Shown here: positions 2,870 through 55,006 of the stretch, piece by piece
How positions within the stretch are numbered: the first letter of the stretch is position 1
Layout: each line of letters begins with the position of its first letter
NCBI GenBank assembly: GCA_949358305.1
Contig: OX442314.1
Location: 39,998,581 to 40,062,580, forward strand
Length of the DNA: 64,000 bases
Direction: 5' to 3'
From: Strigamia acuminata
Taxonomy: Eukaryota > Arthropoda > Chilopoda > Geophilomorpha > Linotaeniidae
Program-made: the position numbers and the translations under genes
The notes under the pieces: model-generated
Told to the model about the DNA's origin: nothing
Databases searched by the model: none
Seen by the model: only the letters and a program-made list of their open reading frames with translations

Positions 2870-2898
2870 GCGCGCATCCAGACGGTCTAGTGGATGCG
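2857..2898 (+). promoter_or_regulatory. -1 ribosomal frameshift signal, element A
   Basis: The slippery heptamer A AAA AAC at 2857-2863 is in the correct phase: gag codons read CTA AAA AAC TTG TAA. A 9-nt spacer is followed by a perfect 8-bp hairpin, CGCATCCA (2873-2880) with TGGATGCG (2891-2898) and a 10-nt loop. Pol is in the -1 frame and is open through this site, with no usable ATG near its start. This is the textbook arrangement for making Gag-Pol. The same heptamer in the same phase occurs in elements B and C. Confidence 0.9.
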
Positions 2899-5800
2899 AC
2901 GCCTACCGCCTCGGAAAATGAACTAACACCATCTCAGATTTTAGATGAATTTTTAAATACCCAGATTAAATTAGAATTAGAAAATAATTTAGTATTTCCA
3001 AAAATTGATGTTTCCAGTTTAAGGCTTGTGCTGCAAAATGAAAACATCACTGAAGAATTTTTTAAAGAAAAAGTTCAACAAATAAAAGTTGATTGGGAAT
3101 CTAAAATAAAAGATGCTGTTACTTTACTAGATGGAAAAGCTAGGCCCACACCTGAAATTGTTGAAAGGTCAGGTAAAATTGATTTACCTGGTCTTGATGA
3201 ATGCATTGAAAAATTAATGGCTACAACGCTAGTCACTAATGATTTATTGGACGAATTACCATTGGATCCGCCAATAGAAATTAAGCCACCGCGACGTTTT
3301 AAATGCAAGTACGCGGACATACCAAACAGCAATGATTTGCCGACGATTCGATTGCAGACGGCAAACGGTATGATAACAGGGATGTTAGACTCTGGAGCTA
3401 ATCGAAGCTTCATGGCCTACTCCGTAGTAATTTCGCTGAAACTGGAAGATGAAATTCGACCAATAGGACCGGATGTGAGAGTTACGACTGCTTCAGAAGA
3501 TGTAGTCCCTGAAGGGACTCTCCTACTTTCTTTTGCATGGACACACGGGATGTTAAGTCATCCATTCATAATTTTAAGAAATAAATATCCTATTATTTTA
3601 TTAGGATGTGATTTCATGAATCGACTCAATATTCAACCAAATCCTAAGACCATGTCTTGGAATTTTGTCAAGTCTTTGAAAGAAGATTTACCTTTTGTTC
3701 CTCAAGCGATTCTTGATCGTTATCAAGAGTTTCTTGATCCACCCGAAGAAATCATGAAACGCGACTTTATTAAAGCAAATCACATGAAAGCTGGTTCCGC
3801 CACTGCATGTCAAGCTAAAGTTGCCGATGAAGAAAATATAGTACAAAGACTTGTTAGCGATGCTAATTTGTCAATGGAAAATAATTTAATGCTTGAAAAA
3901 GTATTAAAGAAACATGAAAAGATTTTATCACGCCGACCAGGTAGAACACACCTCGTTAGGCATGAAATTAAACTGGACACTAAAGTTCCTATTAGAGTTC
4001 CGTTTAAAAGCGTAAATCCACAGAAACGTGAAATTATCCGTCAAATCTGTCAAGATATGTTGGATAATGGGTACGTCGAACAAGCCACTGGAGACTATGG
4101 AATGCGAATAGTTCTAGTGATGCGTCCGGATTGTGATCCAAGACTCTGCATTGATTTTAGACCACTCAATGCACATACATTATACGACCCTCCTCAAATG
4201 CCCAGCATTGAGGAAATCTTGCGAGAACTCGGAAGGTTTGAATGGGTCACAACAATAGATTTGTCAAAAGGCTATTGGCAGATAGAGGTTCATCCGAACG
4301 ACCGTGCTAAAACTGCATTTTGGAGCCCTTTGGGTCGACTACAATTTCGAGTCATGCCCTTTGGTCTCGTAAATGCGCCGTCAACTTTCCAGAAGTTAAT
4401 AGAAAAAATTTTGGGGGACGCCTATCGAAAATTTGCATGGGCATACCTCGATGATATAATCATTATATCTAAAAATTTTGAAGAACACATGATTCATCTG
4501 GAAGAAATTCTGAGTAAACTTGAAAATGCAAATCTTCATGTTCATCCAGAAAAATCGAAATTTGGCAGAAAAGAATTAACTTTTCTTGGTTACAAGTTAA
4601 GTGTTCAAGGAGTTAGTGTCGACCCTAAAAAAGTCGCCGCCATTAAAGAAATGCCAGCTCCTTCAAATTTGAAAGAGTTGCAAAGGTTTTTGGGAATGGT
4701 GAACTTTTTTCACCGATTACTTAAAAATCTGGCAGTAATGACAGAACCTCTACGTCCTTTACTCAAAAAGGATGTGGAATTTATTTGGTCAGAAATTCAT
4801 CAAGAAGCTTTTGATCAAATAAAAGATGCTTTAACGAATGCAGAAACAATGGCCATGCCTGATTTGACAGAACCATTTATTGTGCATACCGACGCCAGCA
4901 GAAAAGGACTAGGCGCCGCGCTTATGCAAATGAGAGAAATCGATGATCAAAATATCGAAGTGCCTTGTGTTTATGCCAGCAGAAGTTTACAACCTGCTGA
5001 GATAAATTACAGCGCCACAGAATTGGAGTGCCTAGCGGTAATCTGGGCATTACGTAAATTTCGACATTATTTGGAATTTACAACATTCATAGTAAGGACT
5101 GACCATCAAGCATTAAAATGGTTGATGCAGTTGGACGAACCTGCTGGAAGGTTAGCGCGTTGGCAAATGGAGCTAATGCGCTACTCTTTCGAAATACAAT
5201 ATATTAAAGGTCCACTAAATGTTTTAGCGGATGCTTTATCCAGATCACCGATTGATAAACCAGAAAATCCTGAAGATGATGGAGATAATGACGAATTATT
5301 ATCTTACTGTCCATCACCACAACGAAAATGGAAAATGGGAAAATTCCATGAGCTTCCTGTCTCCACATTAGAGGAAAAGGAAGATCATGAATTCGTCAAC
5401 TATTGGACTAAAATTTATGACTCCTCTGAGGAATCAGATGACGTCATAAGAGCGCAAATTTCAAGGAAATTCCAAGTTCCTTCGTCAAATGTTTTAATAA
5501 AAGCATTTGTCGCCAAAATTGTAGAACGTCTTGATTGTGAACCTCCCACAAGGGAAGACATAATCAAGGCCCAAAAAGAAGATAAAGTTTGCCAATTGAT
5601 GCGTAATTTTTTAAATTGTAATCAATTTCCGCCTGACGTCACAACGCGACTCCAGAGGAAACAATATAGAAAACACGCAACCACCTTCTTAATTGAAGAT
5701 GACTTATTAATGCAATTTCATCCCACAATGTCTGATGAATTGGGGGAGGATGGGAGAGCACTCAAAGTTTTTGTACCTCAGACATTGAAGTATAAAATTA

Positions 5801-7338
5801 TTTGGCTGATGCATGGCCACCCACTTTCTGGCCACCCAGGAATTGCAAGGACTCTTTATCGAGCACGCCGAATTTATACCTGGAAAGGCATGAAATCGGA
5901 CATTACGAGATTCATTCGACATTGTGAGCGTTGTCAAGCTTGCAAACCTCGAACGAAAGGACAAATTGAAGCAGCGCAAATGGGTCCTTACAGCCCATTT
6001 GACTGTCTAAGTGTTGATTTGACCGGCCCAAAACCTCGGACGCGCAAAAACAACACACATATTTTAGTCATACTTGATGTGGCAACTCATTGGCCAGAAT
6101 TATATCCAATGTGTAACCCCACTGCTGGAAAAGTAGCAAATTGCATTTATCACCTTTCCATGAGCATGGGATTCCCTCGTAAAATTATTTCTGACAACGG
6201 CCCGCAATTTCGTGCCCAAGTCTTTAAAAAATTTTGTGAAAAGTTCAAGATGGTTCCAACACCAACTTCAACGTATCACCCACAAGCTAACCCGGTTGAA
6301 AGGGTTAACCGTGACATCAAATATTTGGTTGCAATTTATTCATCTGTTCATTCCAAATGGGACGAATATTTGCGTGAATTTGCATTTAGTTTGAGAACTA
6401 CGGTGACGAGAGGAAGAGACTTCTCTCCCGCATTTCTTAACTTTTTTCGCGAACTCAGAGTACCTTGGGATCCAAGAATACCTGAAGGAATTTTGGTCGT
6501 AGATCCAAAAAACCCACATTTATACGTGCAAAAATTAGAAGCCGTTATCGCCGAAACATATCAGCACATGATGTCGCACGTGTTAGATTTGCGTAGACGA
6601 GTTAATCTTAAAAAAGAAGGTGAGAAGTTCTCCAATTTTAAATTAAACGATTTAGTTTGGAGAGATTCTCATGTTTTGTCGAGCGCTGCCCGCGGCATTG
6701 CAGCTGGCATCGCTGATAAAAGAACAGAACCTTATGTAATAACCAAAGTATTACAGGGAGGTTCAGTAGAATTGAGAAAGCTAGAAAATAACGAAATATT
6801 TCCAGCTGTCCATTCGTCTGAATTAACTCCGTATTTCCCGAGTTTCGACCAGGAAGTATGGTTAGAAGGCGAAGAAGTCGGTCAAAAGACTGAAAATATA
6901 ATTAATACGTTAGATGACGATGAATTAAAGAAAATACCTGTCGATAATTCATCCAAACCACAAATGGAGTCAGACCTCGTGAATAACGACGTTGAACTTC
7001 GTGACAGTTTCAAAAAGCTTGAAATTGCTAAAAAAATAAATAAAAAGGTGTTTTTAGAAAAGAAACAAAAAACATCTGAAATAAAAGACTCATCTGACTC
7101 AGTCTCCGATGACAATGAAGACGGCGATTTAAATACAATAAATCCCTCGCCGACAAAGAGATATAATCTTCGGACTCGTAAACCGAGAGGAAAAAACAAC
7201 ATGTGTCTTCTCCCCTCGATAACCTCGAGATCCAGGGATCAGCCGTATGACGTAAGGAGCAATTCCTCAAGCCATACTCAAACCAATCAAACAGTAAGAT
7301 TGGATGACGTCACTAACAGCGACGTTACCCAAACGTAA
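2863..7338 (+). CDS. pol: Pol polyprotein of gypsy element A (PR-RT-RNaseH-INT)
   Basis: It copies the element RNA to DNA and inserts it into the genome. Read by -1 frameshift from gag. Counting residues from 2890: aspartic protease with DSGA near residue 167; reverse transcriptase with catalytic YLDD near 519; RNase H with an HTDAS motif and an ELECLA helix (about 4880-5110); integrase zinc domain H-x3-H ... C-x2-C (HGHPLSGH at about 975, then CERCQAC); and the catalytic triad D1043, D1102, E1137. A GPY/F-type module follows (about 6720-6840), then an acidic/Lys-rich tail containing YNLRTR. The D-to-E spacing has one residue fewer than the classic 35, because the usual NGxxER is NPVER. No stops or frameshifts. 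The C-terminal tail extends beyond that of element B and overlaps a CRE palindrome. Confidence 0.95.
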   Translation, partial: LVSAHPDGLVDATPTASENELTPSQILDEFLNTQIKLELENNLVFPKIDVSSLRLVLQNENITEEFFKEKVQQIKVDWESKIKDAVTLLDGKARPTPEIVERSGKIDLPGLDECIEKLMATTLVTNDLLDELPLDPPIEIKPPRRFKCKYADIPNSNDLPTIRLQTANGMITGMLDSGANRSFMAYSVVISLKLEDEIRPIGPDVRVTTASEDVVPEGTLLLSFAWTHGMLSHPFIILRNKYPIILLGCDFMNRLNIQPNPKTMSWNFVKSLKEDLPFVPQAILDRYQEFLDPPEEIMKRDFIKANHMKAGSATACQAKVADEENIVQRLVSDANLSMENNLMLEKVLKKHEKILSRRPGRTHLVRHEIKLDTKVPIRVPFKSVNPQKREIIRQICQDMLDNGYVEQATGDYGMRIVLVMRPDCDPRLCIDFRPLNAHTLYDPPQMPSIEEILRELGRFEWVTTIDLSKGYWQIEVHPNDRAKTAFWSPLGRLQFRVMPFGLVNAPSTFQKLIEKILGDAYRKFAWAYLDDIIIISKNFEEHMIHLEEILSKLENANLHVHPEKSKFGRKELTFLGYKLSVQGVSVDPKKVAAIKEMPAPSNLKELQRFLGMVNFFHRLLKNLAVMTEPLRPLLKKDVEFIWSEIHQEAFDQIKDALTNAETMAMPDLTEPFIVHTDASRKGLGAALMQMREIDDQNIEVPCVYASRSLQPAEINYSATELECLAVIWALRKFRHYLEFTTFIVRTDHQALKWLMQLDEPAGRLARWQMELMRYSFEIQYIKGPLNVLADALSRSPIDKPENPEDDGDNDELLSYCPSPQRKWKMGKFHELPVSTLEEKEDHEFVNYWTKIYDSSEESDDVIRAQISRKFQVPSSNVLIKAFVAKIVERLDCEPPTREDIIKAQKEDKVCQLMRNFLNCNQFPPDVTTRLQRKQYRKHATTFLIEDDLLMQFHPTMSDELGEDGRALKVFVPQTLKYKIIWLMHGHPLSGHPGIARTLYRARRIYTWKGMKSDITRFIRHCERCQACKPRTKGQIEAAQMGPYSPFDCLSVDLTGPKPRTRKNNTHILVILDVATHWPELYPMCNPTAGKVANCIYHLSMSMGFPRKIISDNGPQFRAQVFKKFCEKFKMVPTPTSTYHPQANPVERVNRDIKYLVAIYSSVHSKWDEYLREFAFSLRTTVTRGRDFSPAFLNFFRELRVPWDPRIPEGILVVDPKNPHLYVQKLEAVIAETYQHMMSHVLDLRRRVNLKKEGEKFSNFKLNDLVWRDSHVLSSAARGIAAGIADKRTEPYVITKVLQGGSVELRKLENNEIFPAVHSSELTPYFPSFDQEVWLEGEEVGQKTENIINTLDDDELKKIPVDNSSKPQMESDLVNNDVELRDSFKKLEIAKKINKKVFLEKKQKTSEIKDSSDSVSDDNEDGDLNTINPSPTKRYNLRTRKPRGKNNMCLLPSITSRSRDQPYDVRSNSSSHTQTNQTVRLDDVTNSDVTQT

Positions 7339-7548: not shown

Positions 7549-10388
7549 ATGGAAGGAGAGGAACCGAAAGAAGGAAGCGAAGCCGGCGCCAACAGCCTCG
7601 AATTAGAAACAAATTCGACGCTGCTTGGTTCCGCAAACACTTCGAATGCATCCGTGGATGTCACCGAAGAGTCCGCCGAAGCGTCCGCTGAAGCTCAAGC
7701 CGCTCTAGCCGACGCTGCTGCCCGTTTGCCAGTCACGCCGTCTCAGCCCCGACTTCGAGGAGGCCTATTCGCCGATCCAAACGGCGAAACTCGTGCACAG
7801 AGACACGACCGGGTAAATAATTTAAAATAAAATTACTTTTCAGTCATGAAAAGTAATTAAAAGTGCATTTTCACTCCGAAAAAGCAAAAAGTTCGTTGGT
7901 AACGCCTTCGCAAGAAGACGCCGCCATTATTATCATCAGATGGCGCTGTGTCTCATTTTTGAGGCGTTGCTACGGTAACGCTCCAAACACTGAAACATAG
8001 CCGTCGGAAACAACGTTTTTTACGATTTTTCAAATATTTTGAAAAAAAATTTAATGAATCTAAACTGTCGAATGAAATCTCACCCGTGATTTTATTCACT
8101 GAAAATTCGGAAATAATTATTTTACACGAAAAAATGGATTTTAATTATTTCTTCGAATATTTTTACAGATTATCCAGCTTCGGGAGACGCATCTCGAACT
8201 ACACCCCGATGTTCCGACCGCTCCTGGTGTCTGGCGACACGCATTGCCGCCAGAAATCATAAAGTCGAAAGGACGACTGACGTTTTGGGCGGCCCGACAC
8301 AAATTCTCCAAGGCCTTAAACAAGCGATGGGGAACGAAGTTTCGGATCGCCTATTTAATCGATGGATTCGGTCATCGCGACGCCCTCGAGTGGGCAATGA
8401 AGCGCGACACCTTCGGACCACTGCGAAACGTGTTGCTCGACTTCGCCTTCACAGTGATCGCACAAGAAACGCGAGACCATCGCCGTTACTTCAACGCTCC
8501 TGCGTGGGAGCGTCGACAGATTTTGGAGGACATTTTCCAACGCTTGGATCAAACCAAGGCCGAGGTTGTACGCCTCTACAACGAATCTTTCCGTGTAACA
8601 ACGGACGGAAAGAAACGTTGGGTGCCGACATGCCAGTCGGAGATGCATCAACTAGCCATGGGCGGATGTTTCCATGCAGATTTCGTGCCGAACCCGTATC
8701 CAGAGCCTGAGCCCCGGGTACAGGTCGCTTCCACCATCCACGTGGTGCCACCGCGCTCCACGTCGAGGTCACGATCATCGAGGTCGCCCTACAGTGGCCG
8801 TCGCTCCTCCCCAACACAGTCGTCGGGGGAAGGCGCCATTGGAGGGTTACCTCCACTCCAGAAGGCTCGTCATCGCTCACATCACCGACGCGAGCCGACG
8901 CCGCCGAAAAGACATTCGAAGTCCGTATCGAGACCCACATCCCGAAGCCGACCTCGAGTGCAATCGCATCAATCTTCCACGAGGAGTTCACTCTCGTCGC
9001 GTGAAGAACGATCCAACGCTTCACAGCTTACCGCTTCCTCCTCCGGCCGGATTGACTGGTCGGACGAGATAGCGAAGGAAGATCAACGCATCGCCGCATT
9101 GCAAGCCGGTCAGGGAGACGTTAACACCTCTTTGCCGTTCGCTTGCCGTCCAGTCACCAGCGACATGCGACCAGATCCATCGGTGCCCGTGCCACAAGTG
9201 ACATCGGTCATCCGTTTTGAGGGATACGTCTCTCACGAACCATTTCCCGCACAGGAGTGCGCTGATCTCTGGAGGCGATTCTCATCGTTTCCCGAGACAG
9301 CCCAAACGATGTACCTCGCGCATCTGGACGAATACCAACTCGCTCAGATCCGCGAAGGTGAGAAGGAATGGCAATGGCTTGCGCGAGAGCTTACGTCGTG
9401 CAAGTCCGACAAGCAACTGCAACGGACGCTGCAGAAGATGAACAGGAAGTTGTCGGAGGGACTTCTTCGAATCCTGTTCCAAGGAGTCTTTCCCGACCCA
9501 CAGATTGCTCTGGCCGCCGCCACTCGATTGTGGACCGTGCCGCTAGGGCTTCCACGAGCCTTGCTGGACGATTGGGAGTCAGTTCGCCCCGATCCTCCAA
9601 CGATGCTCGCCGAATTGACGCAACAAGCCGAGGCGACTGGCGAAACTCCGGCTGGATCCGCCATTCGACTACGGCAGGAATGGGCTGCGCTGAAGCAGCG
9701 ACGCACAGCAGAACGAGCCACCGCCCGTCCCGCTGGCGCACCACCGTCATCCGCAGCTCCACTCCACGCTGCCATCACGGCAACGTCGAGTGTTTCCCGT
9801 GCGACCGAGGCACCGAGTTGCAACATCTCGTCTCCGATGGAATGGCTCGACAGCGACGATCGCGAGTTCGTCGTGCCTGTGGCCTGCGGTGCCAGACCAA
9901 AGACGCGCACCCCGGCTTTACGCAGATCCAGATCCCTCTCGATCTGCAAGAAGTCGCCGCCACCGCCGCCTCCTCCAAAGGATTCGCCGCCAAGAGATAG
10001 GGGATCGAGTATGGCCACCCACCTCACCGCCTATCAACGTTTGCGCTCATTATACGCCTTTTGCTACATAACGAGCGCAACGAAAACGATTCTCCAGAAC
10101 AGCGAGGATTTATGCAACCGAGTCCTCGCGTGGCTGGAAAACCACATCAAGGAACAGCAGCCGTGGATCCTACATCAACGCCTGGTGTTCGCTCGAATTA
10201 CGCCTCAGGACCCGCAGGAGTACTTCGAGATGGGTTTTGGACGAAGGGATGGTGTGGACCGCATCAAGCAAGTGTGGCTCCACATCAACCCTGGCTTCCG
10301 GTCAGGACCAAACGCCGGCCGACCTTTGTGCACCGTCACCGAGCACAAAGATCCAAACGATCATTCGACGGACATGTTGCCGAAATAA
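7549..10388 (+). CDS. Spliced third ORF of element A, novel protein (827 aa)
   Basis: Two coding exons: 7549-7812 (ATG start, 88 codons, ends CGG before donor GTAAAT) and 8169-10388 (acceptor TTTTTACAG), joined in phase 0 across a 356-bp intron. It sits where env would be, but I see no signal peptide and no transmembrane stretch. Layout: acidic Ala/Glu-rich N exon; a domain with EVVRLYNES and HQLAMGGCF; a long Ser/Arg-rich linker with SR dipeptides (8745-9060); a helical middle domain (LFQGVFPDP, then ALAA-TRLWT); a polyproline run at about 9955-9980; and a C-terminal domain ending in GPNAGRPLCTV. Element B encodes a clear homologue with the same order of parts. No enzymatic motif is visible and the function is unknown. 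The SR-rich, disordered character suggests RNA or splicing-factor contact, but that is a guess. Confidence 0.8.
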
Positions 10389-10562: not shown

Positions 10563-11640
10563 TGTGGTGACCTCAAATATTCCTATTTGAGTGCGCACCA
10601 TATTTCCAAATTGTCTTATAAACATATTCAACAAACTTATATGTTTTGTTTCAATGTAAATTGAAATAAAACATACATTAATAAAATATAAAACAAGACA
10701 CAATATTACCCAAATAATATTGTGTTTTGCAGCAAGTTTTGGCCCAGCAACAGCGTCAACCAATCGCGCTGCAGCGTGCATTGCTTTGATGATGCTGCTA
10801 GGCGTGTGCCTGGGCGGAGCATCCCTTCCCCTCGCGCGTGCCCGGCTCGATTGTTGCACACGACCCGAAGGCGGCCGTGTGTGATCTTCATGCAACTCGT
10901 CATCTGCGCAGCTTTTCTGAGCAGATTTAGAAGTGAGCCAAACGGTTTTGGCCCACTCTTCCCGCACTCTTGATTCCACCTCCAAACTGTTCACAACCGT
11001 GTCAAACTTCTGCCAAAACTGCAAAGTGTGATCTGTGATTCTTGGACGAATTGAGTTTCATCGCTGGTCTGTACCCACTGTACGGAATAGCAACTTTCTA
11101 GCTTGAATTACTACGAGTAATTTAAGCCATTTCTGTGTGTGAAACTAACATCGAGTTTACTCTGTTAGTTTGAAGGCTTTGTGTCGAGTTTAACTCCACA
11201 AGGCGAATTGTGTTAAGACGGATTGTTACGTCGAGCTTGCTCCGTAATAATCAAATCGCTGTGTGCAAGACGTATTCTCGTGTTGAGCTTGCTCCGCGAG
11301 GATTTTTAGTATATTTTAGCAAAGTATTTTAGCGTCGAGTTTACTCCGCTAAAATCCCGCGCTCACACGACGCCATCGACGCCATTTTGGAGCCAACGGT
11401 CAACTGTGAGTGTCCAAGTACGAAGAGAAACCAGATCGACCCAGTCATTACACTTATTATTTCGCATTATATTCGGGTGTATTTAAAACGATTAAAACAA
11501 TCTAATTTTTCCTTTACTCTGTGTAAAATCATTCCCCTAGACAACCATTTGGCCACAGAGTAGAAGTCCTGTACGGCATCTCACCGACGATTGCTTATTA
11601 AATTTATATAATTTAATAAGTAAAAACCCGGATCGCCGCA
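10563..11640 (+). repeat. 3' LTR of element A (1078 bp)
   Basis: It starts TGTGGTGACCTC and ends CCCGGATCGCCGCA, the canonical TG...CA. Both ends resemble the LTR of element B (TGTGGTGATCTC ... CCCGGATCGCAGCA) although the bodies differ. The 3' edge is set by this similarity, because the partner LTR is outside the window. The second half carries the hairpin array annotated separately. Confidence 0.85.
11101..11355 (+). repeat. Array of hairpins with a constant loop in LTR A
   Basis: Five hairpins share a loop of consensus TCGAGYTTRCTC but have unrelated stems. (1) 11142-11171, 9 bp perfect. (2) 11176-11204, 8 bp with one U-G and one extra loop base. (3) 11221-11252, 10 bp with one G-U. (4) 11274-11303, 9 bp with two U-G. 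(5) 11326-11355, 9 bp perfect. The loop itself can fold as a UC bulge, a GAG/CUC mini-stem and a UUUA or CUUG tetraloop. A sixth hairpin with a different loop (TACGA) lies at 11101-11127. All imperfect pairs are G-U when read on the + strand, which is the element's sense strand. Confidence 0.85.
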
Positions 11641-12628: not shown

Positions 12629-12704
12629 ATGCTGCAACCATTGTGAAATGCTGCAACCATTGTAAAATGCTGCAACCATTGTGAAATGCTGCAACCATTG
12701 TGAA
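12629..12704 (+). repeat. 19-bp tandem repeat, four units
   Basis: ATGCTGCAACCATTGTGAA is repeated at 12629, 12648, 12667 and 12686. The equivalent place in copy 2 (from 43747) has only two units, so this is a variable-number repeat. Confidence 0.9.
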
Positions 12705-13326
12705 ATGTGTGTTAAACTAGGCAAGTCTATGCTCGATAATGCAACTGAAGAGTTTCGTATAAAGTTCAGTTCTTGATAGAAAGGTCCCCACATTTTCTTC
12801 AGTGTTTACGATAAATGCCAAAGAATTTGAAACAAAGGATAAATGTCAAAATGAAGTCAAAGTTAACCGCCATAGAATATGTGGCAAAAGAAACAGCTGA
12901 AAAATTAGAATTCCCCCCTGACTCGTGAACAACGATTACAAATACAAAACACCTTCAAGTGTCAATATGCTTGGGTAAGTAACTTTTTTAAATTATTCTT
13001 TTGAATTATGCATAATTTTTTTTTGGAAAGCAAAATGCAACGTCCCGTTTATCGTACCTGCTGTTCCTCACTTGTGACTTGTGAGGAATCCCTAAACAAC
13101 TGCATAAATACCCGGGATGAGGACAGCGTCTTCAGAGTATTTCAATGCCACAAAAACAACGAATAGTTAAAAGTTTTAAACTATTTTTAACAGAAAATTC
13201 AAAGATTCATTATTTGAAGAAGCCTTTTCACAAAACGTAGTTTGTTTTTGTTTGTTTTGGTTTACGTGTTTTAAATGTTACATCAAAGTAGGATGTCACA
13301 TTAAAGTGAACACCCAATGAAAAAAA

Positions 13327-13975
13327 ATGTCAAAGAAAAGCAGGAAGAGAAAACAGTCAAGAGCCAAAAATCAACAACTGTATTTTTCAAATTCAATTCA
13401 ATCAAAAGAAAACATGGCAAACAGAGCACACAGAAATGTTTTTGATGAAATGCAGGCTATTTTCAACAGAACAGAGCACAGAGGACACCACCACCACCAC
13501 AGAATCACCTGCCGCCACTTGCACCACACCAGTGGATGCACCGACAGCCAAGTGACAGGGAAATCCAGTTTGTGTATGGCCATGTGCTAGAACGACTTGC
13601 CCAACAAACTGCACAGATAACATCATTAGAGAGACTTGGAATTCTCTCAAAACCATTTAGCCATGGTGCAGGAGCGACTCCGGATTGCAGAAACAGCATT
13701 AGCAAATCAACAACAGCAACAGTTTGTGCAACCGGAAGAAGTTATTTACACATCAGAAGATGAAGAGGAAGACCATCAGCTGCCGGTACATCAGGTACCA
13801 CCTCCACTTCCACATCAACCTCAAGAGTTAGACCCAAAAACACTAGAGGTCGATTCTACTGAAGATTGTGTCATCTGCCAGTATAACATGAAAAAAAAAT
13901 GAAGTTGTAGTGAAACTAAACTGTAGAGACTCCTTCCACTATCAGTGTTTTTTGCAATGGGGTTGTGAGAACGGA
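13327..13975 (+). pseudogene. RING-H2 gene, copy 1, frameshifted and truncated
   Basis: The start at 13327 (MSKKSRKRKQSR) is Lys/Arg-rich and includes a His run. The frame must then change near 13520 to continue as a helical region (QFVYGHVLERL), change again near 13640 to FSQNHLAMVQERL with a Gln run and an acidic TSEDEEED stretch, and finally enter a RING finger beginning CVICQYNMKK. An A9 run (13891-13899) shifts the frame inside the RING; the other frame continues with LNCRDSFHYQCFLQWGC. The final C-x2-C pair is missing because foreign sequence starts after the Trp-Gly-Cys. Copy 3 (47175-48454) supplies the missing end. The usual His of C-x-H is Asp. A RING-H2 is normally a ubiquitin E3 module; this copy cannot make one. 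Confidence 0.7.
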
Positions 13976-14127
13976 TCTCGTACCGTACGAGACTCGTTCG
14001 TGACCCATAATTCTCCGCGCCGACCAGTTCCGTTTCCGATTGTTTTCTCGAGACGAAGCACGCGTTTTTACTTTCTCCTTGAAAGCCAAAAACCTCTTCT
14101 TTTTGTTACGAACAATCTGAGTTTTCT

Positions 14128-14244
14128 ATGGCTGATCGACGCAATCCGAAGATAGATCCCGACGCGTCGTCCTCCAAAGACGAGAGCGAAGGGCTAGTGA
14201 TTGAAGCGGAGGACGAGAATTGGGACAAACCGGAGCAACCTCAG
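14128..14244 (+). CDS. Candidate first coding exon (39 codons), copy 1
   Basis: ATG followed by an open, acidic, Ser/Asp-rich stretch (MADRRNPKIDPDASSSKDES), ending CCTCAG before a consensus donor GTAACT. The short acidic first exon with a GTAA donor resembles the first exons of the gypsy third ORFs. The downstream exon is in the gap. The identical copy is at 45207-45323. Assignment is tentative. Confidence 0.4.
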
Positions 14245-14318
14245 GTAACTGTTTAGATCTCTCCACGACATCGGAATTTACAATCCGTTGACATCAGACA
14301 TCTTGTTGGAGTGTGACT

Positions 14319-14518: not shown

Positions 14519-15135
14519 GGCAAGGGGGAAATTCCTATTTCCCTCCCCACCACGAAGGAGGGTGAAACCACAGGAGATCTTCCAAGAAAGTGAATGTCCA
14601 GTTAGGAATGCACAGGTGACTAACGTCAACTGTGTCACTCCTTATCCATCCAACCCATTCGCGGAAAAAGACAATAGGCCTGGATTAGGACGATTATCGA
14701 GTTTGACGCGAGAAGTGACCATTGCTTCCTTGCAACCCGACTGACCAAGACGTCTCCAGACCGTTCCTGTGTGCCACCATCCTTTGTGACCATTTGACCA
14801 GTTTTCGAGCCGTTTTAGCTGTAAAGTTAAGTAGTATTTCGGTTATTATTAGTTTAAGCGTGTTTCTTATAAACGCCAGTATAAAAATTTAAAAGTGTAA
14901 ATTTTTCATTTGATTGTAAGTTAAGTGTGTTCTTTTTACACACCAGTTTAACGTAAAGCTTTACATTCAGTGTAACGTTAGTATCAGAATCAGTTAGACG
15001 AATATATTACGATATATTCTTTCTTCCGCTAGTTGAGTTCTTTTGTAATTACATTTTTCTTAGAAAAACGTGATTACGTTCGTGTATTTAGACAGATTAG
15101 TTAAGTCAAGGATTACAGCGCTAGAAACGTTAGTT
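14519..15135 (+). other. Leader or 5' LTR remnant of element C with hairpins
   Basis: No ORF of substance. Two related hairpins stand out. One is at about 14853-14885: inner stem GCGT...ACGC, loop rich in TTCTT, 3' bulge CAGT. The other is at 14920-14952: GTTAA and GTGTGT pairing with ACACAC and TTAAC, loop TCTTTTT, 3' bulge CAGT. A perfect 12-nt palindrome GTAAAGCTTTAC lies at 14953-14964, and an 8-bp hairpin GAATATAT-TACG-ATATATTC at 15000-15019. No convincing tRNA primer binding site was recognised. Confidence 0.5.
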
Positions 15136-17187
15136 ATGTCTCGTAGTCACCCCGAAATGTTTGCTTCCATGAACCAAGGCGCTGAAGACAATACTCACCA
15201 TTTATCGGACGATTCTGGCGACGAGGGAGATTCTCGAAACGTGGCATACGGCCTGAAAACGTACTGCCGCCATTTTAAATTAGATGCTATACGCTTCGCC
15301 ACGCTGGCAGAAGCCAAGCACTACGTAGCTTTGAATCAACCAGCTGAAAGTTCGCTGAATCACTCAGCCACTTCGCCCGATGAATTGATCTTGAATAGGG
15401 GGAAATCAAGTGGAAATGCGCCTATTACTTATGCGCAACCACGGGACTTACCCTTATCTCGAGAAAATTTGTCACCTCAAGACAATAACCCGCTTCCGCC
15501 ACGTGTTTCTACACCAATTAGGCTCGTTTCACAGGCCGTTGGAGGGAACACAGACGGCGATGCAGGGTTAGATTTATCGATAAGGGGGAGTCCGACGGAA
15601 CCCCCATCGATCCTACGGGCAGATAACCAAAAAACGCAAGGTAGGCGCCACTCAGTGTCGCCTACTCGATATAGGTTAACTGGTCCCCCAGTCACTGAAA
15701 GAGTGGTTTTCAATTCAGATCAAGACTTTTCCCGTTCAAACCCTCGTCACAGAGAGGAGCAGCTCCAACTGACTTGTCGCCAAATAACCAATGGTGGACA
15801 AGATCGCAGGGAGCGAGCTGAGGACGCTCAGCAACAGCCAACTCGTCGGGAACCGCTTGGTCAGAGACCACGACAGTTCACGGCGAACGCTACTCATCAA
15901 TCTAACGGCGAAGATTTTTATAATCATGGTAACGGTTCTCAAACCAATCATGGTTATAATTCTCCGAGCCAAGGGGGACGAAGGAGTTCGACAACTCCTC
16001 CTCCCTTTGTTCGCCCTCGCCCAAATTTTCGACCTATCTCGCCACACGGAATGAGAGGTGATAGACGTAACGACTCGGACCAAAATTCGAATTTTGTGCC
16101 AAGTCTTTCGCGGGAAAATTTGACCGCCATTATTCAGGGGTTGACGGGTCAACCCCCGAGGAATGAGTCCAATTATCGGCGCAACATCTGTAAGGGATTA
16201 GACATCCCTGCATTTGAAGGCCGGCAGGAGGATGTAGCGAGATTTTTAGAGATTACTAAATCTGTCGCTAGTTTAAAAAGAGTTCCACTTGACGAGATGA
16301 TCCATGACGTAGTACCCGGCTACCTACTTGGACATGCTCAAACGTGGTACAAAAAAGAATCGCATCGCTTCTTGAGTTGGAATATTTTCGAGGATGCGTT
16401 CTTAGAACGCTTCGATCTAGTCCCTCTCACCAGAGCGCGACGGTTACGTAACGTAATCCAACGAGCCGACGAAAGCCTTTATGACTTTCTCTTGCGGTTT
16501 TCACAAGCTCAAGGGAAAGTACCTGAAGGCAGTCAAGAGGGAGTGACCCATCTGTACGACAACATCACCCCCGAAAGTTTCGCTCTTTTAGTTAACAAGG
16601 GGCTTTATGGAAAGAAGACGGTCGATGAAATTATTCATTTCGTCGGTCGTCATCGTTGTATGTTCGAGACGAGAGCGCAACACTCCGCGCGTCTCAAATA
16701 CGACAATAGCGACAAGACTTCGGCAAATACTCCCGTAAATGCCAAAGACAGTCGTTTTCCAAATAAAGCCGCTCTTCGCGCTTCTAAGGTTGATTATCCG
16801 TCTAAGACGAGTAATGAACCTAAAAGCGAAGACGAGCCGGAGAGCGAAGACGAAATGGAGAGACTATTCACCACTTATACGGAAAATAAAACGGGCAAGT
16901 GTTTTTATTGCCATGAAACTGGGCATTTCAAACGTGAGTGTCCTAAGTGGTTAAATAAGAACAATATGGGTGATGGCGCTAAGCGCCCAAACCCTTCCAA
17001 CACCTTGTCGGAAGAGAATAAACGGCCTAAACCGAATTGGGTCACCATCGATTTACTAGACAACAAACTAGGAGCTTTTCAGTCAAATATACAAAGCACA
17101 ATGACTGAGTTGTTGTCTAAGTACTTGCACCCACCCACAGCCACCCCAGCTCCAACTATTGAGAAAAAGGAAACGTCAAAAAACTAG
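15136..17187 (+). CDS. gag: Gag polyprotein of gypsy element C (683 aa)
   Basis: Structural protein of the particle. ATG at 15136 is the first in-frame ATG; the frame is open further upstream to about 15070 with no ATG. N-terminal half is hydrophilic and Ser/Arg/Pro/Gln-rich, probably disordered (15180-16160). A capsid-like retrotransposon Gag domain follows (about 16190-16700; VPGYLLGHAQTWYKKES, then FLLRFSQAQGK). A CCHC zinc knuckle (C-x2-C-x4-H-x4-C) is at residues 589-602 from this ATG. It terminates with TAG immediately after the slippery heptamer. It shares domain order with Gag of A and B but little visible sequence, and lacks their coiled coil and AT-hook. Confidence 0.92.
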   Translation: MSRSHPEMFASMNQGAEDNTHHLSDDSGDEGDSRNVAYGLKTYCRHFKLDAIRFATLAEAKHYVALNQPAESSLNHSATSPDELILNRGKSSGNAPITYAQPRDLPLSRENLSPQDNNPLPPRVSTPIRLVSQAVGGNTDGDAGLDLSIRGSPTEPPSILRADNQKTQGRRHSVSPTRYRLTGPPVTERVVFNSDQDFSRSNPRHREEQLQLTCRQITNGGQDRRERAEDAQQQPTRREPLGQRPRQFTANATHQSNGEDFYNHGNGSQTNHGYNSPSQGGRRSSTTPPPFVRPRPNFRPISPHGMRGDRRNDSDQNSNFVPSLSRENLTAIIQGLTGQPPRNESNYRRNICKGLDIPAFEGRQEDVARFLEITKSVASLKRVPLDEMIHDVVPGYLLGHAQTWYKKESHRFLSWNIFEDAFLERFDLVPLTRARRLRNVIQRADESLYDFLLRFSQAQGKVPEGSQEGVTHLYDNITPESFALLVNKGLYGKKTVDEIIHFVGRHRCMFETRAQHSARLKYDNSDKTSANTPVNAKDSRFPNKAALRASKVDYPSKTSNEPKSEDEPESEDEMERLFTTYTENKTGKCFYCHETGHFKRECPKWLNKNNMGDGAKRPNPSNTLSEENKRPKPNWVTIDLLDNKLGAFQSNIQSTMTELLSKYLHPPTATPAPTIEKKETSKN

Positions 17188-17218
17188 TACAGGGGGTTGT
17201 GACTTTATCCCAACCCCC
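17178..17218 (+). promoter_or_regulatory. -1 ribosomal frameshift signal, element C
   Basis: Heptamer A AAA AAC at 17178-17184 in gag phase (TCA AAA AAC TAG). A 7-nt spacer is followed by a perfect 8-bp hairpin, GGGGGTTG (17192-17199) with CAACCCCC (17211-17218) and an 11-nt loop. Pol is in the -1 frame and open through the site. This is the same solution as in A and B despite unrelated flanking sequence. Confidence 0.92.
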
Positions 17219-20200
17219 CACTAATAATTGCCTCCTTCCTTTCTCTGAGTTCACCGATGATTTGTTTTCACCTCGAAGAGTTGAAATTCCAATTATGGAC
17301 GAACTGGCCGAGGTGTTAGGCCAACTTGAACTTTCCGATGAATTAATTCCGATCCGAGATCGCGCAACTAGTTCCTCCGGGGGAGTTCAGGAAGGTATTG
17401 ACTCTATGACGAAACAAATGGAGCGTATGACTATCTTTAAAGGTCCGTGGAATCGTAAAAAATTCTGCAACCTCAAAAGATTACATCATGGATACTCTGT
17501 CGAATTTGTAAATGCAGTAAATGGTCGGACTTCCGATACACCTAGGATGCGAATCGAAATCGGAGGGCTCACCTATAACGCATTAATGGACTCTGGAGCT
17601 ACTCAATGTTTCATTGGGGCACAGCTTTTGTCTCAGACAAGAGCCCCCAGTGATTATATACAGGAGTGCCCCCGAGGAATGCGAGTCTGTGCAGTGGGAG
17701 TGGATCATCGACCCATTGGACAAATCACTCTGTGTGTCAAATGGGGAGACGAGAAACAGTTTACACCCATTAACTTTGTCGTACTGAAAGAAAATGTGTG
17801 CGATCTCATAATCGGCCATAATTTCATGCGGCGAACGGGCATCAACTTAAACCCCATGCGGGCAGTATTCACCTGCGACAGGCTGCCTGGCTGGACCGCA
17901 CCCTACGAAATCGGAGATTTCGAGAGTGCACTAGCCGGGTTACATACACTCGCCGTTGGCAAGGCAGAGACACATACACCAGAAAACTGGGCCGATTTAT
18001 TAGTCCTAGACTGTGACGGCTCAGACGAGCAAAAAGAACAACTTCGGGCTGTAATTTTAGAGGCAAAAAATGCACTTCGCGACGAAGTCGGTTGTACGCA
18101 TTTAGCCACACATAGCATTACTTTTAAAAAGGATGCTAAGTGGAAAATTCAACCCTATCGGATGTACAATCCACAGAAGAAGGCGATCATGACTCGTTTG
18201 GTAGAGGAACTAGAGGCGGACAACCTGATTGAACCCGTGATAGGCTCCTGTCCATACGTTAGTCATCCCGTCATCGTTGCAAAACCTGGCGGAAAATACC
18301 GCCTGTGTATTGACTATCGTTGGCTGAATGCCATAACGGAGGTAGATGCAATTCAGATGCCTAGCATCGACTTGCTCATCCACCATACCAATCATGCGAA
18401 GTATTTCTCCTCTCTGGATTTAACCAAAGGATACTACCAAATGGCGATGAATGAAGCTGACAAAAAGAAAACCACTTTTTACACCCCTAAGGGGAAGTTT
18501 CAATTCAAGCGCATGCCGTTTGGTCTATGCAACGCTCCAAGCTCCTTTCAGCACTTGATGACTCAAGTGATGGGAGAAGCTCTACACGAACACGTTTTAG
18601 TTTACCTGGATGACCTGATAATTTTCTCAGAAAATTGGGAGGACCATGTTAAACCTGTAAAAGACGTATTGGAGAGATTAGATAAAGCCAATCTGACAGT
18701 TAATAAATCCAAAACCAAGTTGGGACGAACGTCACTAAAGTTTTTGGGTCACCTCATTACACCCGAAGGGTTAATGGCGGACCCAGATAAGTTAGTGTCA
18801 GTAAGGAAGTTTCCTACACCAACGTGCTCTAAAGATATCCAGCGCTTCCATGGTTTGGCAAACTTTTTTCGTAAATTTATACCAAATCATGCGGAGATTG
18901 CGTTACCTTTAACACGTATGATGCACACTAATGCTGTCTTCGACTGGGGCGAAGAGCAAGAAACTGCTTTCAATCAAATAAAAGATATTCTGTGTGATGA
19001 GCACCAAGTGCTCCACATGCCGGATATGCTGAAGCCTTTTGTAGTCATGACAGACGCGTCACATACGGGACTCGGTGCCGTGTTGTGCCAAGACGTCAAT
19101 GTATTTAACGAAAAGACGCAGAAGTGAGTTCCTTCGCCAAAACCTGTTGCTTACGCAAGTAGAGTTTTGCGAGGAGCGGAAGTTCGCTATTCAACACCAG
19201 AGTTAGAATGCCTAGCTGTAGTGTGGGCCATAGATCGCTTCAGGCCTTACCTAGAGTATACTACGTTTACTCTAGAGTCAGACGCACAAGCACTTGGCTG
19301 GCTCATGTCAACGCCTGAACCATCGGGACGTTTTGGCCGTTGGGCGGTCAAAATTCAGTGCGGCGCCTTTAAAATAGTGTTCCGAAAGGGTGCTATGAAT
19401 CAAGTTGCGGACGCACTGTCTAGAGCACCGCTCTCAGCCTTAGACACACCTGTTACTGACTACCTGGAACCGGAGGAAATTCATCAATTTTTCCCGACTT
19501 GGGTAGGCAACAGGAACACGAGTGTTGTCCTGGACGAGCTCCCACATCCCTTTCTCGCCAACGTTAATGTTCGTTTTGATGATTTCTCCGAGTTCAATGA
19601 AGTCGAAGATTTAATTGATCTTGGAGAAAAGGGGGAAGGAGTAGATAGAAAAGAAACTCTTTTTAGCGCCCTAACCGACGTGCTGAACGAAGTCCCGCCA
19701 ACGCGTGCAGAAATCATAGCAGAACAGCTAAAAGATGCTTTTTGTAATAGAATTTTAATTTATTTAAAATCTAACGAAAAGAAACGAAAAGAATACACTG
19801 ACCAAGAATGGATTATGTCCATTCAAAGTTACTGTCTCGACGAGAGCGGAGAAGATGGCAGCAGGATGCTCATCTGTTTCCAACCAACTTTTGAGGAGGA
19901 ACTCAATGACTCGGGAAACGGGTTCAAGGCGGTAGTTCCTCGATCTCTCGTGAGACGAGTACTATTTGCATGCCACGGACATCCACTCAGTGGACACGCG
20001 GGCATGAGCAAAACATTGGACAGAGCGAAACAAACATATTTTTGGCCTAAGATGAGCAAAGACACGAGACATTATGTCCGGGGCTGTGCTCATTGCCAAC
20101 AATATAAACCAGGGCAACATCGCAAGCGAAGGGCACCTTACACGCCTCATAATATGACGACACCCTGGGAGACAATTTGCATTGACTTGATGGGCCCGAA

Positions 20201-21275
20201 ACCCGCAGGTCGATCGCAGTTACAGTGGATCTTTGTAGTGATAGATCAATGCACTAAGTGGATTGAGCTATTTGCACTAACAAAAGCTACCAGCGAGTCA
20301 ATCGTAAACAGACTCAGTGAAGTGATTCATCGTTGGGGTTACCCCAAGAAAATCCTTTCTGATAACGGCAAACAGTTCGTCAGCACTATTTATAATGATT
20401 TTTGCAAAAAACATCATATAAATATTTCACACGTGAGCCCCTATCATGCAGCTGCTAATCCAACCGAAAGGGCCAATAGAAATATCAAAATGATGCTGGC
20501 TCTTTATTCTGATATTCATTCTAAATGGCCAAGGTTCCTAAACGAATTTGCGTTCGCTTCGCGAACGGCAAAATCGGAATCATTAGGATTCTCACCAATG
20601 ATGTTGAATACAGGAAGATCGGTTCCCTTGCCGTTTGATCCACGTGTTTTACAACACGCTATCAAATTCGATAAACATAATCCTGAGGAATATGTTTACA
20701 GTATTCTTGATGTGCTCCGACGAGCGCATCAAGAAATGCACCGGAGAATCCAACTTAATTACGAGCGTCATGATAGAATACACAGGAATAAGTTTTACAT
20801 TTGTGAATTCAACATAGGCGATCTAGTTTGGAAGGCAACCCATATCCTGTCCAATAAAGAGAAAGGAATCACGGCTGGCTTTGCCGAGAAACGCGACGGT
20901 CCTTGGGAGATCACGGCGGTATTAGGAGGTGGCGCCTATACTCTTCGAAAATTGGCGGATGATTCTATCGAAGCATCCATTAATATTCAAGATTTGTGTC
21001 CCTATATCCCGTCTTATCCTGTAGAGACTTGGTCGGCAGATCAAATTGAAGGTACGGACGATGTACACCCCACCCCGAGTTGGATGGAGGAACATTTCCC
21101 TAATTCTCTCGAAAAAGGAGATGTCCCTCCGATAACTACGGAAGAGCGTACTCTCGCACCCAACAAATCAGAAAAAAGAAAGAATTCGTCGCCTGTCAAA
21201 AGGTCGAAACGCGTTGCTAAACCCAACAAGAAATATGATGATTTTGTATCAAAAATCCAGATCGGTAAATTATAA
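17184..21275 (+). pseudogene. pol: Pol of gypsy element C with one in-frame TGA
   Basis: Read by -1 frameshift from gag. Protease with MDSGATQC (about 17587); reverse transcriptase with LTKGYYQ and catalytic YLDD (about 18600-18620); RNase H with MTDASHTGLG (19048) and ELECLAVVWA (19202); integrase H-x3-H ... C-x2-C (about 19970-20110); catalytic Asp in IDLMGPK (about 20185), Asp in SDNGKQF (about 20360) and Glu in NPTER (about 20465); then a GPW module (about 20895). One TGA at 19125-19127 sits between the first RNase H motif and the rest. The frame is unchanged after it, so it is a single nonsense codon, not a frameshift. The copy would need readthrough to make integrase and is most simply dead. 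As in A and B, the DD-E spacing is one short. Confidence 0.93.
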
Positions 21276-29776: not shown

Positions 29777-30756
29777 TGCTGCGATCCGGGTTATTATCCA
29801 CTTAATTTCTAATAAATTAAGCAGAAACCGCAGGTGAATGCTTAACAAGACTTATATCGCGGCCGAAACTTGTCTAGGGTTAAGTTTACGGAAATAGGAA
29901 TAAAAAGACAGTTTATTATGGTAATAAAAATCACACAATTATTTATTCGGTTTAAATTACAATATATATTAATAATGATTATGAATATCACAAAATGCGA
30001 CAAGTCGCAAGAATAAAATGAGCGGGAAACAATGAAACAAAGGAAGGGCTTGCAACGACCGTTGCAAGCTACAAAGCGTCAGAAATGGCGCTTAAACAAC
30101 GCGATGTTGTTGAGCGAAGGCAAATGTCTTCGTTTTCGGCAAACTCACGAACGATGGTCGAAGACGATGGTTCTCGTGGGTTTCTTCTACGGCTCGTGCG
30201 ACGGCTCGGCGGCGGTGGTTGACGGCTGTAGGCGTCCGGCTCTCGTACGATGGCGGTGGCTGTCGTTCGCGCGGCAGCGACGGCGATGGTTCACGATCGT
30301 CGGGAAACTTCTCTTCTCGATTGCTGGAATTAGCTACGGCTAATTCAAGCAGAATTGCTGGCTTTGTGCTTTGGGTGGCACAAAGATAGCAGGTGAAACT
30401 GAGTTACAACGGTCCTCTATCAATACTTTTCTTTCAGGAGCAAAAGCAGTGATGTTGAGGTTGTTGTTGTATTTTTCAGAGTCCCGATTTGAGCCAAGAC
30501 GCGAGCCCAGCACGCTTCAATATTGCGCAGGAAACCTGCGCACTTAGCTCAAATGGGTGCAACTAGTGGTTATTACACCATATTGCACCATAACGGCTAA
30601 TAACCGTTTTCACCCCGGACAACCTGGGGTGATATGTGCCTAGAGAGGATTTCTCCCCTCGGTCACATGATCTGACTTGGCGTGTGCCACAGTCAAATTA
30701 ATTAGAAGACAATTAATTTTATCTTCTAAGTTGGTGAATATTTTGAGATCACCACA
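29777..30756 (-). repeat. 3' LTR of element B (980 bp)
   Basis: TG...CA termini; in sense orientation it starts TGTGGTGATCTC. It differs from the 5' LTR by an extra 20 bp near 30240-30262 (flanked by GGCT, so probably deleted from the other copy by slippage) and by C versus T in the first hairpin. Four consecutive hairpins occupy 30048-30132 (stems GCTTGCAACG, AAGCG, AACAAC, CGAAG). Confidence 0.97.
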
Positions 30757-30808: not shown

Positions 30809-33457
30809 TTATGATTCGTCCATGTTCTGAGTTCGCTCAGGCGTCAACGGGCGCATCATGTCCGTGGCGTCGTCCCTCGGATTTGACCGCTCGTTAACCG
30901 TACACAGGTCGCGACCTGCGTTTGGTCCGGAGACCATTCCAGGGTTGACATGAAGCCAAACCTGGATGATTCTTGCCGAGTTCGCTCGGTTGAAAAATCC
31001 CAGCGCCGCAAACTCTATCGGATCCTCTGGCGCTAATCGTGCTCTCAGGAGTCGATCATGGAGCACCGATGGTGGGCTTAACACCCGAATGTGGTCTTCG
31101 AGCCACATAAACACCTGCCTCGACAACTTGTGATTGTTGCTCAGCAGTGTTCTTGTATCCGGCGTCAAATAGAAGTGCGGATACAGGCGCATCAGGGTCT
31201 TGAAAGCCGACTCCTTCTTCAGCGGCTTGACCTTCGTCTCCGGCTTGGCTGGCGGCGGCGGCGGCGGTGGACGTGAGTCTTCCGCCGTGGCATCGTCGAA
31301 ATGGCTCGGCGAGCCCAAGAAAACCAACGCGGGTGCGGAGGTTGACGAGGGTGTGACGCCTCGTCCCTGCGCTCGACCAACTCCGGTGAGCTTACGGGGT
31401 TCGACTGCCCGTTGAACTCCGGCTGGAGTTTGAGAACTTCCGGCGTTCTCTGGCCAAAACGAACATCCAGCGCCCTCTTGGGCCGACTGGAAAACAGCTA
31501 GTGACGCAGCTGCTGTGGCGCTCGTAACTGGAAGCGGTGTTCTTCCGGCCATTTGCGCCGTGGCCTTCGCAAAGGACCACTCGGTTCGCAACCGAACGGC
31601 GGCCTCTTCTTCGGTCTCGCCGTTTGCTACGACTTGCTTAATTAGCTCGGCCAAGATCGTAGGCGGGTCGAGCCGGAGGTGGTACCACAGCTCGACTTTC
31701 TTCTCCGACAGGCCCATCGGCGCGGTCCAAAGGTACGTAATGGCCGCTAACGCCTGTCCTGGCGAAGGAAGAACACCAGGGTACAACACCCTAGTCATCC
31801 CCGGAATTAGCTGACGCTGAAAATCCATCAGGCGGGGATCATCAATGGTATTGATGTCGGAGACTTCTAGCCTTTCAGCTAGTCTCTGCCAGTCCTTCTG
31901 CGACTCGGCGATCTGGGCGCTTTGGTATGCGTCCAGCTTCTGGAGCACTTCTTGCTGCGCTCTAATGGGTTGCTGCTCGTAGCAGGTCCATTGTGGGCCG
32001 AATGACTCACTAAAAAATGGCCGGAGTTGCAGGTTGCTAACTCCAGCCGGCAAGCGGGAAACATATCCATGTTCGGGCAAGCGGCTAGCGTGTCCAGGTA
32101 CTGGCACGCTACAGTCGGGAGAGATATCACCGACAACACGTCTCATGGCGTATGGAGTAGCCGGGTTGTCCACTTTGAACGTGGAGGCGGTTCGGCTACT
32201 TCGGGCGGACTGGATTGTGGAGTCCGATTCGAAACTCAGCGAGGACGACGAGCCAAACGTCTCTGGTGTCCGTCCTCGTCGCGACTGCGGGCGTAGTGGC
32301 TGTGCTTCAGTCGAATATGGGCGCGATCGCCTCTGTCGCTCTTCTCGATCGCGGCTCGATTCGCGGAACATTGGTCGGATTGGAACCGGCGGAGGGAGTT
32401 GCCCCACCCTCAAATCCTCGTCTTGCGGCGGAGGATTGATGGCCTCTGGGGCCGGAATTTCATCTTCTCGATAAAAAGGGAGAGCGCAGCGCGCTTGCTC
32501 CTCTGCCTCCTGTTCTTGAGCCAGTTGTCGATTTTCGTCGACGCGAAGCTGCACTGCGGCAGCTCGGAGTGCTTTCGACGGGAAGAATCCCGGAAAATCA
32601 TTGAAGCACCCTGCGAGCGCCAACTGATGGAGCTCGGTTTGTGTGACGGGAAATTGGGGGTTCCCATCACGAACGGACTTGCGGTACCGTCGCACGACTT
32701 CGCGTTGTGTCGTTTTGAGGTTCTTCCTCAATTGGGTGAGAGCACCGTAATTAATTCCGGTACTCTTTAGCGCTCTTCTGCGCTCGTGACGCTCTCGTGG
32801 CGTCACTGGCCACTGGTTGTGCAGCAACTCGGCAGCTAGTGGTCCTGGGGGGCTCTCGTCGAGCGTCCACTCGATTTCGTCGACACCGTCTACGTGAAGG
32901 CGCTCGATGAATCGACCTCTTGCTCCAAATCCTTGCAGAGCCGATCTGCTGAAGTCGTGGCGCAGCTTCCACCACGTGTTGTTCGCCGTCTTCAGTCTTC
33001 TGATTTTTTCGGGCAACGCCGCTCGAAAAATCAGCGGGTGTTGGGTCGGCACATGATCGGGGAGCGCAAACGGCGTCTCTCGATCCCTCTCGATCTATAT
33101 TCGAAAAAATAAATAAATAAATTAGTTTATTTAAAAATAAACAAATAATTTCTTATTTGAAATATTTTTTTAAGCTTAGCGCTTGTGGCAGTGAGCCACT
33201 AAGGGATGTTGGTTGTCATAGCAACTCCCTTCGCACATGCTTGAAGCACGTGACTTTTATAGCCGCCATTTTTATTTTTTAGCGGCTTGTGTTTGAAGTC
33301 AGGAAAAGTGAAATTACTCAATTTTTCTGACTGAAACACCAAGTGAAAATTATTTTAATAATTTACCCTCTGTTGTAACGATAATTGGACATCGTTACCG
33401 GCTCCTTCCATCGGCGTTTCCTCGTCCGCATGGAGGTTGACTTCGTCGTCTGCCATT
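30809..33457 (-). CDS. Spliced third ORF of element B, novel protein (791 aa)
   Basis: Minus-strand exons 33368-33457 (ATG, 30 codons, acidic, ends AGG before donor GTAAAT) and 30809-33094 (acceptor CGAATATAG), phase 0, with a 273-bp intron. It is homologous to the A third ORF: EVVRRYRKS with HQLALAGCF in the N-domain; a Ser/Arg-rich linker (SRDREERQRRSR region); a middle domain (VLYPGVLP, then YLWTAPMGL, then LDPPTILAELI); a polyproline run; and a C-domain with QVWLHVNPGM and GPNAGRDLCTV. Both exons are intact in this young element, which argues that the protein is functional. No signal peptide, membrane segment or enzyme motif was seen, so it is not a normal Env. Role unknown. Confidence 0.82.
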
Positions 33458-54918: not shown

Positions 54919-55006
54919 GGTATATAAGCTGCAGATGTCAGCGTTACAATCATCAATCATCTTAGCAGCTTCGAGTCGTAAACTACACCCAGTTTATTCG
55001 TTTACA
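54919..55006 (+). promoter_or_regulatory. TATA-type promoter of the cullin gene
   Basis: TATATAAG at 54921-54928, the consensus TATA box. Transcription would start about 30 bp downstream (around 54950), after the first in-frame ATG (54935). The ATG at 55007 is therefore the likelier translation start. Confidence 0.6.

Follow-up and report, generated by a model that had tools for sequence, protein, structure and literature searches.

HIV-1 TAR, which lies in the LTR and occurs in one copy, has a pyrimidine bulge topped by a short upper stem. The Su(Hw) insulator of Drosophila gypsy is an array of a constant short DNA-binding motif, which is not known to us to include compensated stems. How animal Ty3/gypsy elements single out their own RNA is, to our knowledge, poorly understood. 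Hairpins with a GACG tetraloop in alpha- and gammaretroviruses are involved in viral RNA packaging (PMC516450), coronavirus SL5 carries repeated UUYCGU loops on neighbouring leader stems (PMC7507811), and the zinc-knuckle region of Ty3 Gag3 is required for packaging of the genomic RNA (PMC4974528). Here, we describe an array of hairpins that share one apex on unlike stems within the LTR of a Ty3/gypsy element. The first-pass annotation of this DNA knew of no gypsy LTR described in this way; no matching description of a same-apex hairpin array was found among the open-access full-text matches listed, and an earlier account may exist elsewhere.

The array is located in a 64-kb stretch of DNA that was analysed as a whole and is referred to as the window. 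The element carrying it comprises, all on the plus strand, a gag-like open reading frame at 50-2869 (Retrotrans_gag, with a zinc knuckle), a pol frame at 2890-7338 (RT, RNase H and integrase), a third frame of 714 aa at 8244-10388 (ORF3) and, preceded by a G-rich polypurine tract, a 3' LTR of 1,078 bp with TG...CA ends at 10563-11640 (LTR A). The sequence of gag followed by a pol with RT and RNase H ahead of integrase, together with paired TG...CA LTRs, is that of Ty3/gypsy (Metaviridae) elements. The 5' LTR partner lies outside the 64-kb window (G000:C1:39997388-39998465) and has 0 mismatches to LTR A over 1,078 bases; thus, the insertion is young. For ORF3, at whose place errantiviruses encode an envelope protein, sequence searches of Pfam and PDB returned no match, and its predicted model is poor (mean pLDDT 39.8).

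Further mobile and repeated DNA is present in the same window. A related element on the minus strand, element B, is bounded by LTRs at 29777-30756 and 41182-42141 (LTR B; 97.9% identical to each other), has a pol 66% identical to that of the LTR A element and carries an ORF3 at 30809-33052, stretches of which are 40% and 49% identical to the ORF3 at 8244-10388. A third gypsy-type element occupies 15070-21275, with gag and pol matches across three open frames. A 1,653-bp repeat is found at 12666-14318 and 43745-45397; its two copies are 99.4% identical, and AATGCTGCAACCATTGTGA-like units form a short tandem array at the repeat's edge. The sequence TCGACCTTATTC, with close variants, is present many times and in either orientation between copia-type reading frames at 59190-60660. 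At 54935-57268, one uninterrupted frame codes for 777 aa, of which residues 38-777 match Cullin-5; it may be an intronless gene or a retrocopy. This Cullin-5-like frame, together with TTAGG repeats at 4 of 12 contig ends examined (one of the ends reads N), indicates that the genome is probably that of an arthropod.

On the sense (plus) strand of LTR A, five hairpins occupy 11142-11355, where the first-pass annotation had placed them: HP1 at 11142-11171 (9-bp stem, TCGAGTTTACTC, apex UC-GAG-UUUA-CUC), HP2 at 11176-11204 (8-bp stem, TCGAGTTTAACTC, apex with one extra base), HP3 at 11221-11252 (10-bp stem with one G-U pair, TCGAGCTTGCTC, apex UC-GAG-CUUG-CUC), HP4 at 11274-11303 (9-bp stem with two G-U pairs, TTGAGCTTGCTC, apex UU-GAG-CUUG-CUC) and HP5 at 11326-11355 (9-bp stem, TCGAGTTTACTC). 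The non-Watson-Crick stem pairs of this array are four G-U and zero A-C, as had been counted before. A scan of the whole window on both strands, which allowed a bulge of 1-3 nt and demanded a stem of at least 6 pairs, returned hairpins of this form at the five array sites and at one weak site. Rfam 15 covariance models gave 0 matches in the window at the gathering threshold; under relaxed conditions (E up to 1), the only matches in LTR A were two weak ones to miRNA models at 10638-10678, outside the array. Precursors of the microRNA type were set aside, the stems being 8-11 bp long.

Upstream of the array, at 11101-11127 on the plus strand, lies a further hairpin with a 12-bp stem, HP0. A counterpart with another stem sequence, a predicted GCU...AGC hairpin, is present in LTR B and in the LTRs of loci L040, L061 and L049, which suggests that HP0 and its counterparts form a structured leader. 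The candidate poly(A) signal of LTR A, an ATTAAA at 11491-11496 (plus strand) that was read by eye, begins 136 nt past the array; by eye, too, an AATAAA was recognised late in the sequence of LTR B and of the L061 and L049 LTRs. Since the array precedes this candidate signal, it is probably transcribed: U3 or R sequence ahead of the poly(A) site is copied into the 3' end of the RNA, so that, if the ATTAAA is the signal in use, the array should be contained in the RNA irrespective of where transcription starts. Should the start lie upstream of about 11100, it would possibly fall within R and, thus, be present at the 5' as well as the 3' end of the genomic RNA.

The constant 'loop' of 12 nt had been suggested to fold further into a bulge, a GAG/CUC mini-stem and a tetraloop. 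This is borne out with more regularity than claimed: two of the 12 nt are bulged, in most cases as UC or UU, and above them a GAG/CUC helix carries a four-base cap whose own ends are paired. Among 71 distinct stem-plus-apex sequences, picked from the loci fetched with any four cap bases allowed, the cap ends are C-G in 47, U-A in 23 and U-G in 1 (L142). Genome-wide, the motif TCGAGYTTRCTC has 657 matches (324 + 333), compared with 37 (21 + 16) for the reversed pattern. UUUA or CUUG caps account for 620 of the 657, whereas UUUG (32; reversed-pattern control 14) and CUUA (5; control 5) are rare.

These motif matches bear on the reading that a protein binds the constant 12-mer as double-stranded DNA, as in an enhancer or insulator array, with stems that are incidental or count only as palindromes in the DNA. 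A constant motif repeated within an LTR is what such a site would look like, and its conservation would then be indifferent to flanking complementarity. The flanks were examined at loci L001-L008 and L039-L078, drawn from 100 of the 657 sites and chosen by the 12-mer alone with stems ignored. Where the cap is UUUA or CUUG, 7 or all of the 8 flanking positions pair in 53 of 63 matches, or of 62 sites, L008 and L039 being the same unstemmed site; in terms of distinct flanks the figure is 15 of 22, with a chance expectation of 0.6% per flank. None of the six UUUG-cap matches is flanked by such a stem, which argues against a DNA site. A natural negative exists in a short dispersed repeat, where the exact 12-mer occurs without array-type flanking stems (L008 = L039, L047 and L077). 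An aligned set of chosen hairpins was biased, as its rows had been selected for 8 or more of 9 pairs, with one further row added; we relied instead on the homology-chosen and the motif-only sets.

Folding of the stretch 11090-11360 with RNAfold gave all five hairpins in the sense strand, at -81.9 kcal/mol (z -4.35), which none of 200 shuffles equalled; the antisense strand reached -66.8 kcal/mol (z -3.17), again unequalled by any of 200 shuffles. When the longer stretch 10950-11420 is folded, the structure of lowest energy keeps HP3, HP4 and HP5, shortens HP1 and lacks HP2. Fold energy as proof of the hairpins was rejected, given that other parts of the element fold about equally well (mean z over 150-nt windows of -2.56 for LTR A sense and -2.23 for the internal sense strand).

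Arrays homologous to that of the window number 77, of which 48 are distinct (family A). All 77 were kept; the genome DNA searches scored the best 40 candidates each, so that the families are sampled. The number of recognisable hairpins per array is five in 65, four in 7, three in 2, two in 1 and seven in 2. Over 45 pairs in the 48 distinct arrays, the stem cells comprise 1907 Watson-Crick, 158 G-U, 7 A-C and 17 other combinations; HP0 was excluded from these pair statistics, many loci being cut short there. Stem changes without compensation in other copies would, according to the first-pass annotation, have refuted its reading; these copies show compensation, both as pairs in two Watson-Crick forms and as two-sided replacements. 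Two Watson-Crick forms occur in 6 of the 45 pairs, including 11142/11171, 11145/11168 and 11147/11166 in HP1. HP5 is found as TAGCG/CGCTA, TGGCG/CGCCA and TGGCA/TGCCA; at 11331/11350 an A-U pair has become G-C, at 11334/11347 a G-C pair has become A-U, and the intermediate form is present.

The constancy of the apex on unlike stems thus stands, but the statement that the stems share no sequence was too strong, as HP3, HP4 and HP5 are alike. Their outer pairs are similar (ATT/AAT, one of them a G-U in the case of HP4), and 30 nt, made up partly of spacer and 5' stem and partly of apex, are repeated every 52 nt with 80% and 67% identity to the reference copy. From this like sequence at 52-nt spacing, the HP3-HP5 part of the array probably grew by duplication, the stems diverging with compensation. 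It might, then, be argued that the array is nothing but a foldback unit duplicated in tandem, spread by gene conversion and hitchhiking and without present function, which would also fit a copy number ranging from two to seven. The rates of change speak against this. In family A, the changes per column are 1.12 in stems, 1.00 in apices and 2.59 in spacers, and in family C, a second LTR family with the same apex, 0.80 in stems and 1.58 in spacers; stems and apices, hence, change at about half the spacer rate. Since, in addition, two-sided replacements recur on the trees, we judge an array without function to be quite improbable.

Two-sided Watson-Crick replacements were counted by parsimony on ML trees, for which the aligned arrays were used with their stem columns left in. 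They fall on 22 branches (10 in family A, 12 in family C), and the same count with slid partners gave 0, 1, 1, 0, 0 and 0, a lenient control in that slid pairs seldom start as Watson-Crick pairs, while a two-sided change on a branch may represent two single steps. This co-change of stem bases is difficult to reconcile with a DNA site whose stems are incidental. Stem covariation had also been proposed for scrutiny with R-scape. A test of that kind, which used 60 alignments per family simulated on the tree and was underpowered because the sequences have diverged too little, had the following outcome: in family A, one stem pair is significant, 11331/11350 of HP5 (E = 0.017), the only significant pair there, and in family C no stem pair is, the two significant pairs lying off the stems in what we read as an alternative apex. 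The RNAalifold consensus of family A reaches -153 in the sense direction compared with -83 +/- 3.8 for 20 column shuffles, and -144 in the antisense direction; this nearly equal antisense value is a point in favour of a DNA site.

The remaining escape for a DNA site is selection on palindromes, which could mimic compensation, and here the strand asymmetry of mismatches matters. G-U pairs in place of A-C had been put forward as the mark of selection on sense RNA. Single changes away from Watson-Crick pairs led to G-U 41 times, to A-C 10 times and to other mismatches 12 times. As stand-alone proof, this G-U excess was rejected, as a slid-pair control showed an excess at four of six slides. Because that control reuses the stem columns, the mutation spectrum of the spacers was used instead, and the excess shrank. 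In the spacers, A>G plus C>T changes stand to the reverse changes as 130:90 in both families together and as 63:32 in family A. Corrected for this mutational bias, the G-U excess holds for both families together (p = 0.006) and for family C (p = 0.024), but in family A alone, with its spacer bias of 63:32, p is only 0.29; the mark is, therefore, upheld for the combined families and not for family A by itself. The data favour the sense strand, if less strongly than first claimed. Taken with the compensated stems and the bare UUUG-cap sites, this makes the DNA-site reading improbable, and the array very probably consists of sense-strand RNA hairpins.

The same apex recurs on unrelated stems in family C (L040, L041, L044, L057, L061 and L151-L186). 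An LTR of this family holds up to three hairpins, Ci with the 12-mer apex, and Cii and Ciii with a longer constant apex and different basal stems; the longer apex has 70 matches genome-wide (37 + 33) and its reversed pattern 0. All 41 loci were kept, and L111-L130, which overlap the same LTRs, were not recounted. Over 33 pairs in these 41 LTRs, 1075 cells are Watson-Crick, 122 G-U, 29 A-C and 4 other, with one fixed C-A mismatch in Ci making up 27 of the 29 A-C cells; eight of the 33 pairs occur in two Watson-Crick forms. The upper stem of Ci is gapped in the alignment in 14 of the 41 LTRs, among which L185 and L186 are perhaps only truncated loci. In the six gapped loci inspected (L163, L165, L168, L176, L178 and L181), the GAG/CUC apex is replaced, and the outer stem is still possible in most.

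A third group (L049, L135, L136, L142 and L146) bears the apex on GAGTCCCG/CGGAACTC-like stems that keep one mismatch; the hairpin of L142 has a UUUG cap. The genome, thus, has three or more LTR groups that share the apex hairpin. A different hairpin is found near 1020 in L061, near 1211 in L049 and near 10-25 in L147, with a GGGTAACGCCC core that is kept and outer pairs that differ between L049 and the others. In LTR B of element B, which shares the window and possesses an ORF3, the constant-apex hairpin is absent; LTR B has many other hairpins, and its whole-LTR fold reaches z -10.1 (20 shuffles).

Other copies thus support the view that an RNA hairpin is repeated here whose apex is constant and whose stems evolve freely but stay paired. 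In a mechanism compatible with these data, each hairpin would present one apical module made up of the 2-nt bulge, the GAG/CUC helix and the cap with paired ends, and the stems would merely hold it up, their sequence being free provided that pairing is kept. The repeated apex would constitute a multivalent protein-binding site, through which the element's own Gag, by means of its zinc-knuckle region, might select the genomic RNA for packaging into particles. Gag is favoured because the Gag of this element has a zinc knuckle, because Ty3 Gag3 packages RNA by this region, and because hairpins with GACG loops take part in the packaging of retroviral RNA; the array also offers what is expected of a packaging signal, namely structured hairpins in several copies that have their apex in common. 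By this analogy, we tentatively prefer a multivalent array read by Gag for packaging, with a likelihood that we place just short of even.

The main rival to Gag is a host RNA-binding protein which would bind the hairpins and control export, stability or translation of the element RNA, the sharing across families reflecting a common host partner. One apex across LTR groups that are otherwise widely diverged would be well explained in this way, and the stemmed occurrences examined are all in repeats of the A, C and L049 types. Conversely, no host gene with a stemmed hairpin was encountered among the sites fetched, which are part of the 657, and element B does without the hairpin; we regard a host partner as rather unlikely. 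ORF3 had also been named as a possible partner, for which no direct support was obtained: element B has an ORF3 and lacks the hairpin, even though a relative of ORF3 adjoins one family C LTR (L040). The same observations weigh on a TAR-like function, i.e., a trans-activation site near the RNA start that a protein of the element, for instance ORF3, would recognise to boost transcription. The array hairpins, which lie in an LTR, do combine a pyrimidine bulge with a short stem above it, and the ORF3 relative beside L040 would be in place, but the presence of several copies per LTR, the lack of a recognisable domain and the poor model of ORF3, and again element B make such a role very improbable.

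Returning to the preferred reading of an array recognised by an element protein, its occurrence in several LTR families allows for a wider, doubtful proposition: these families may carry a common RNA 'address tag', defined by the constant apex on compensated stems in two to seven copies per LTR, and a single element-encoded protein, Gag or ORF3, could read, package or regulate RNAs across families, including those of non-autonomous copies. The apex marks related LTR families that otherwise share little LTR sequence. For Ty3/gypsy elements, the array provides a ready candidate for a protein-binding site, as the apex is constant, the dependence on pairing is shown by comparison, and hundreds of copies are at hand; it suggests that an LTR is able to carry a multivalent RNA array.

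In comparison with known systems, the array resembles the GACG packaging and dimerisation hairpins in that one loop sequence is shared, and differs from them in its other loop sequence, in the bulge plus mini-stem, in its up to seven copies and in its location inside the LTR. With coronavirus SL5, it has in common the same loop on adjacent stems, whereas virus group, sequence and context are unrelated. In the main text of the Ty3 Gag3 article (PMC4974528), 'hairpin' and 'packaging signal' occur 0 times and 'stem-loop' once, and no hairpin array was encountered there. The Su(Hw) array shares the constant repeated motif in a gypsy-group element; its motifs are DNA sites, in contrast to the compensated stems found here. 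Finally, the bulge and the short upper stem are shared with HIV-1 TAR, which is a single copy, whereas the array displays several.
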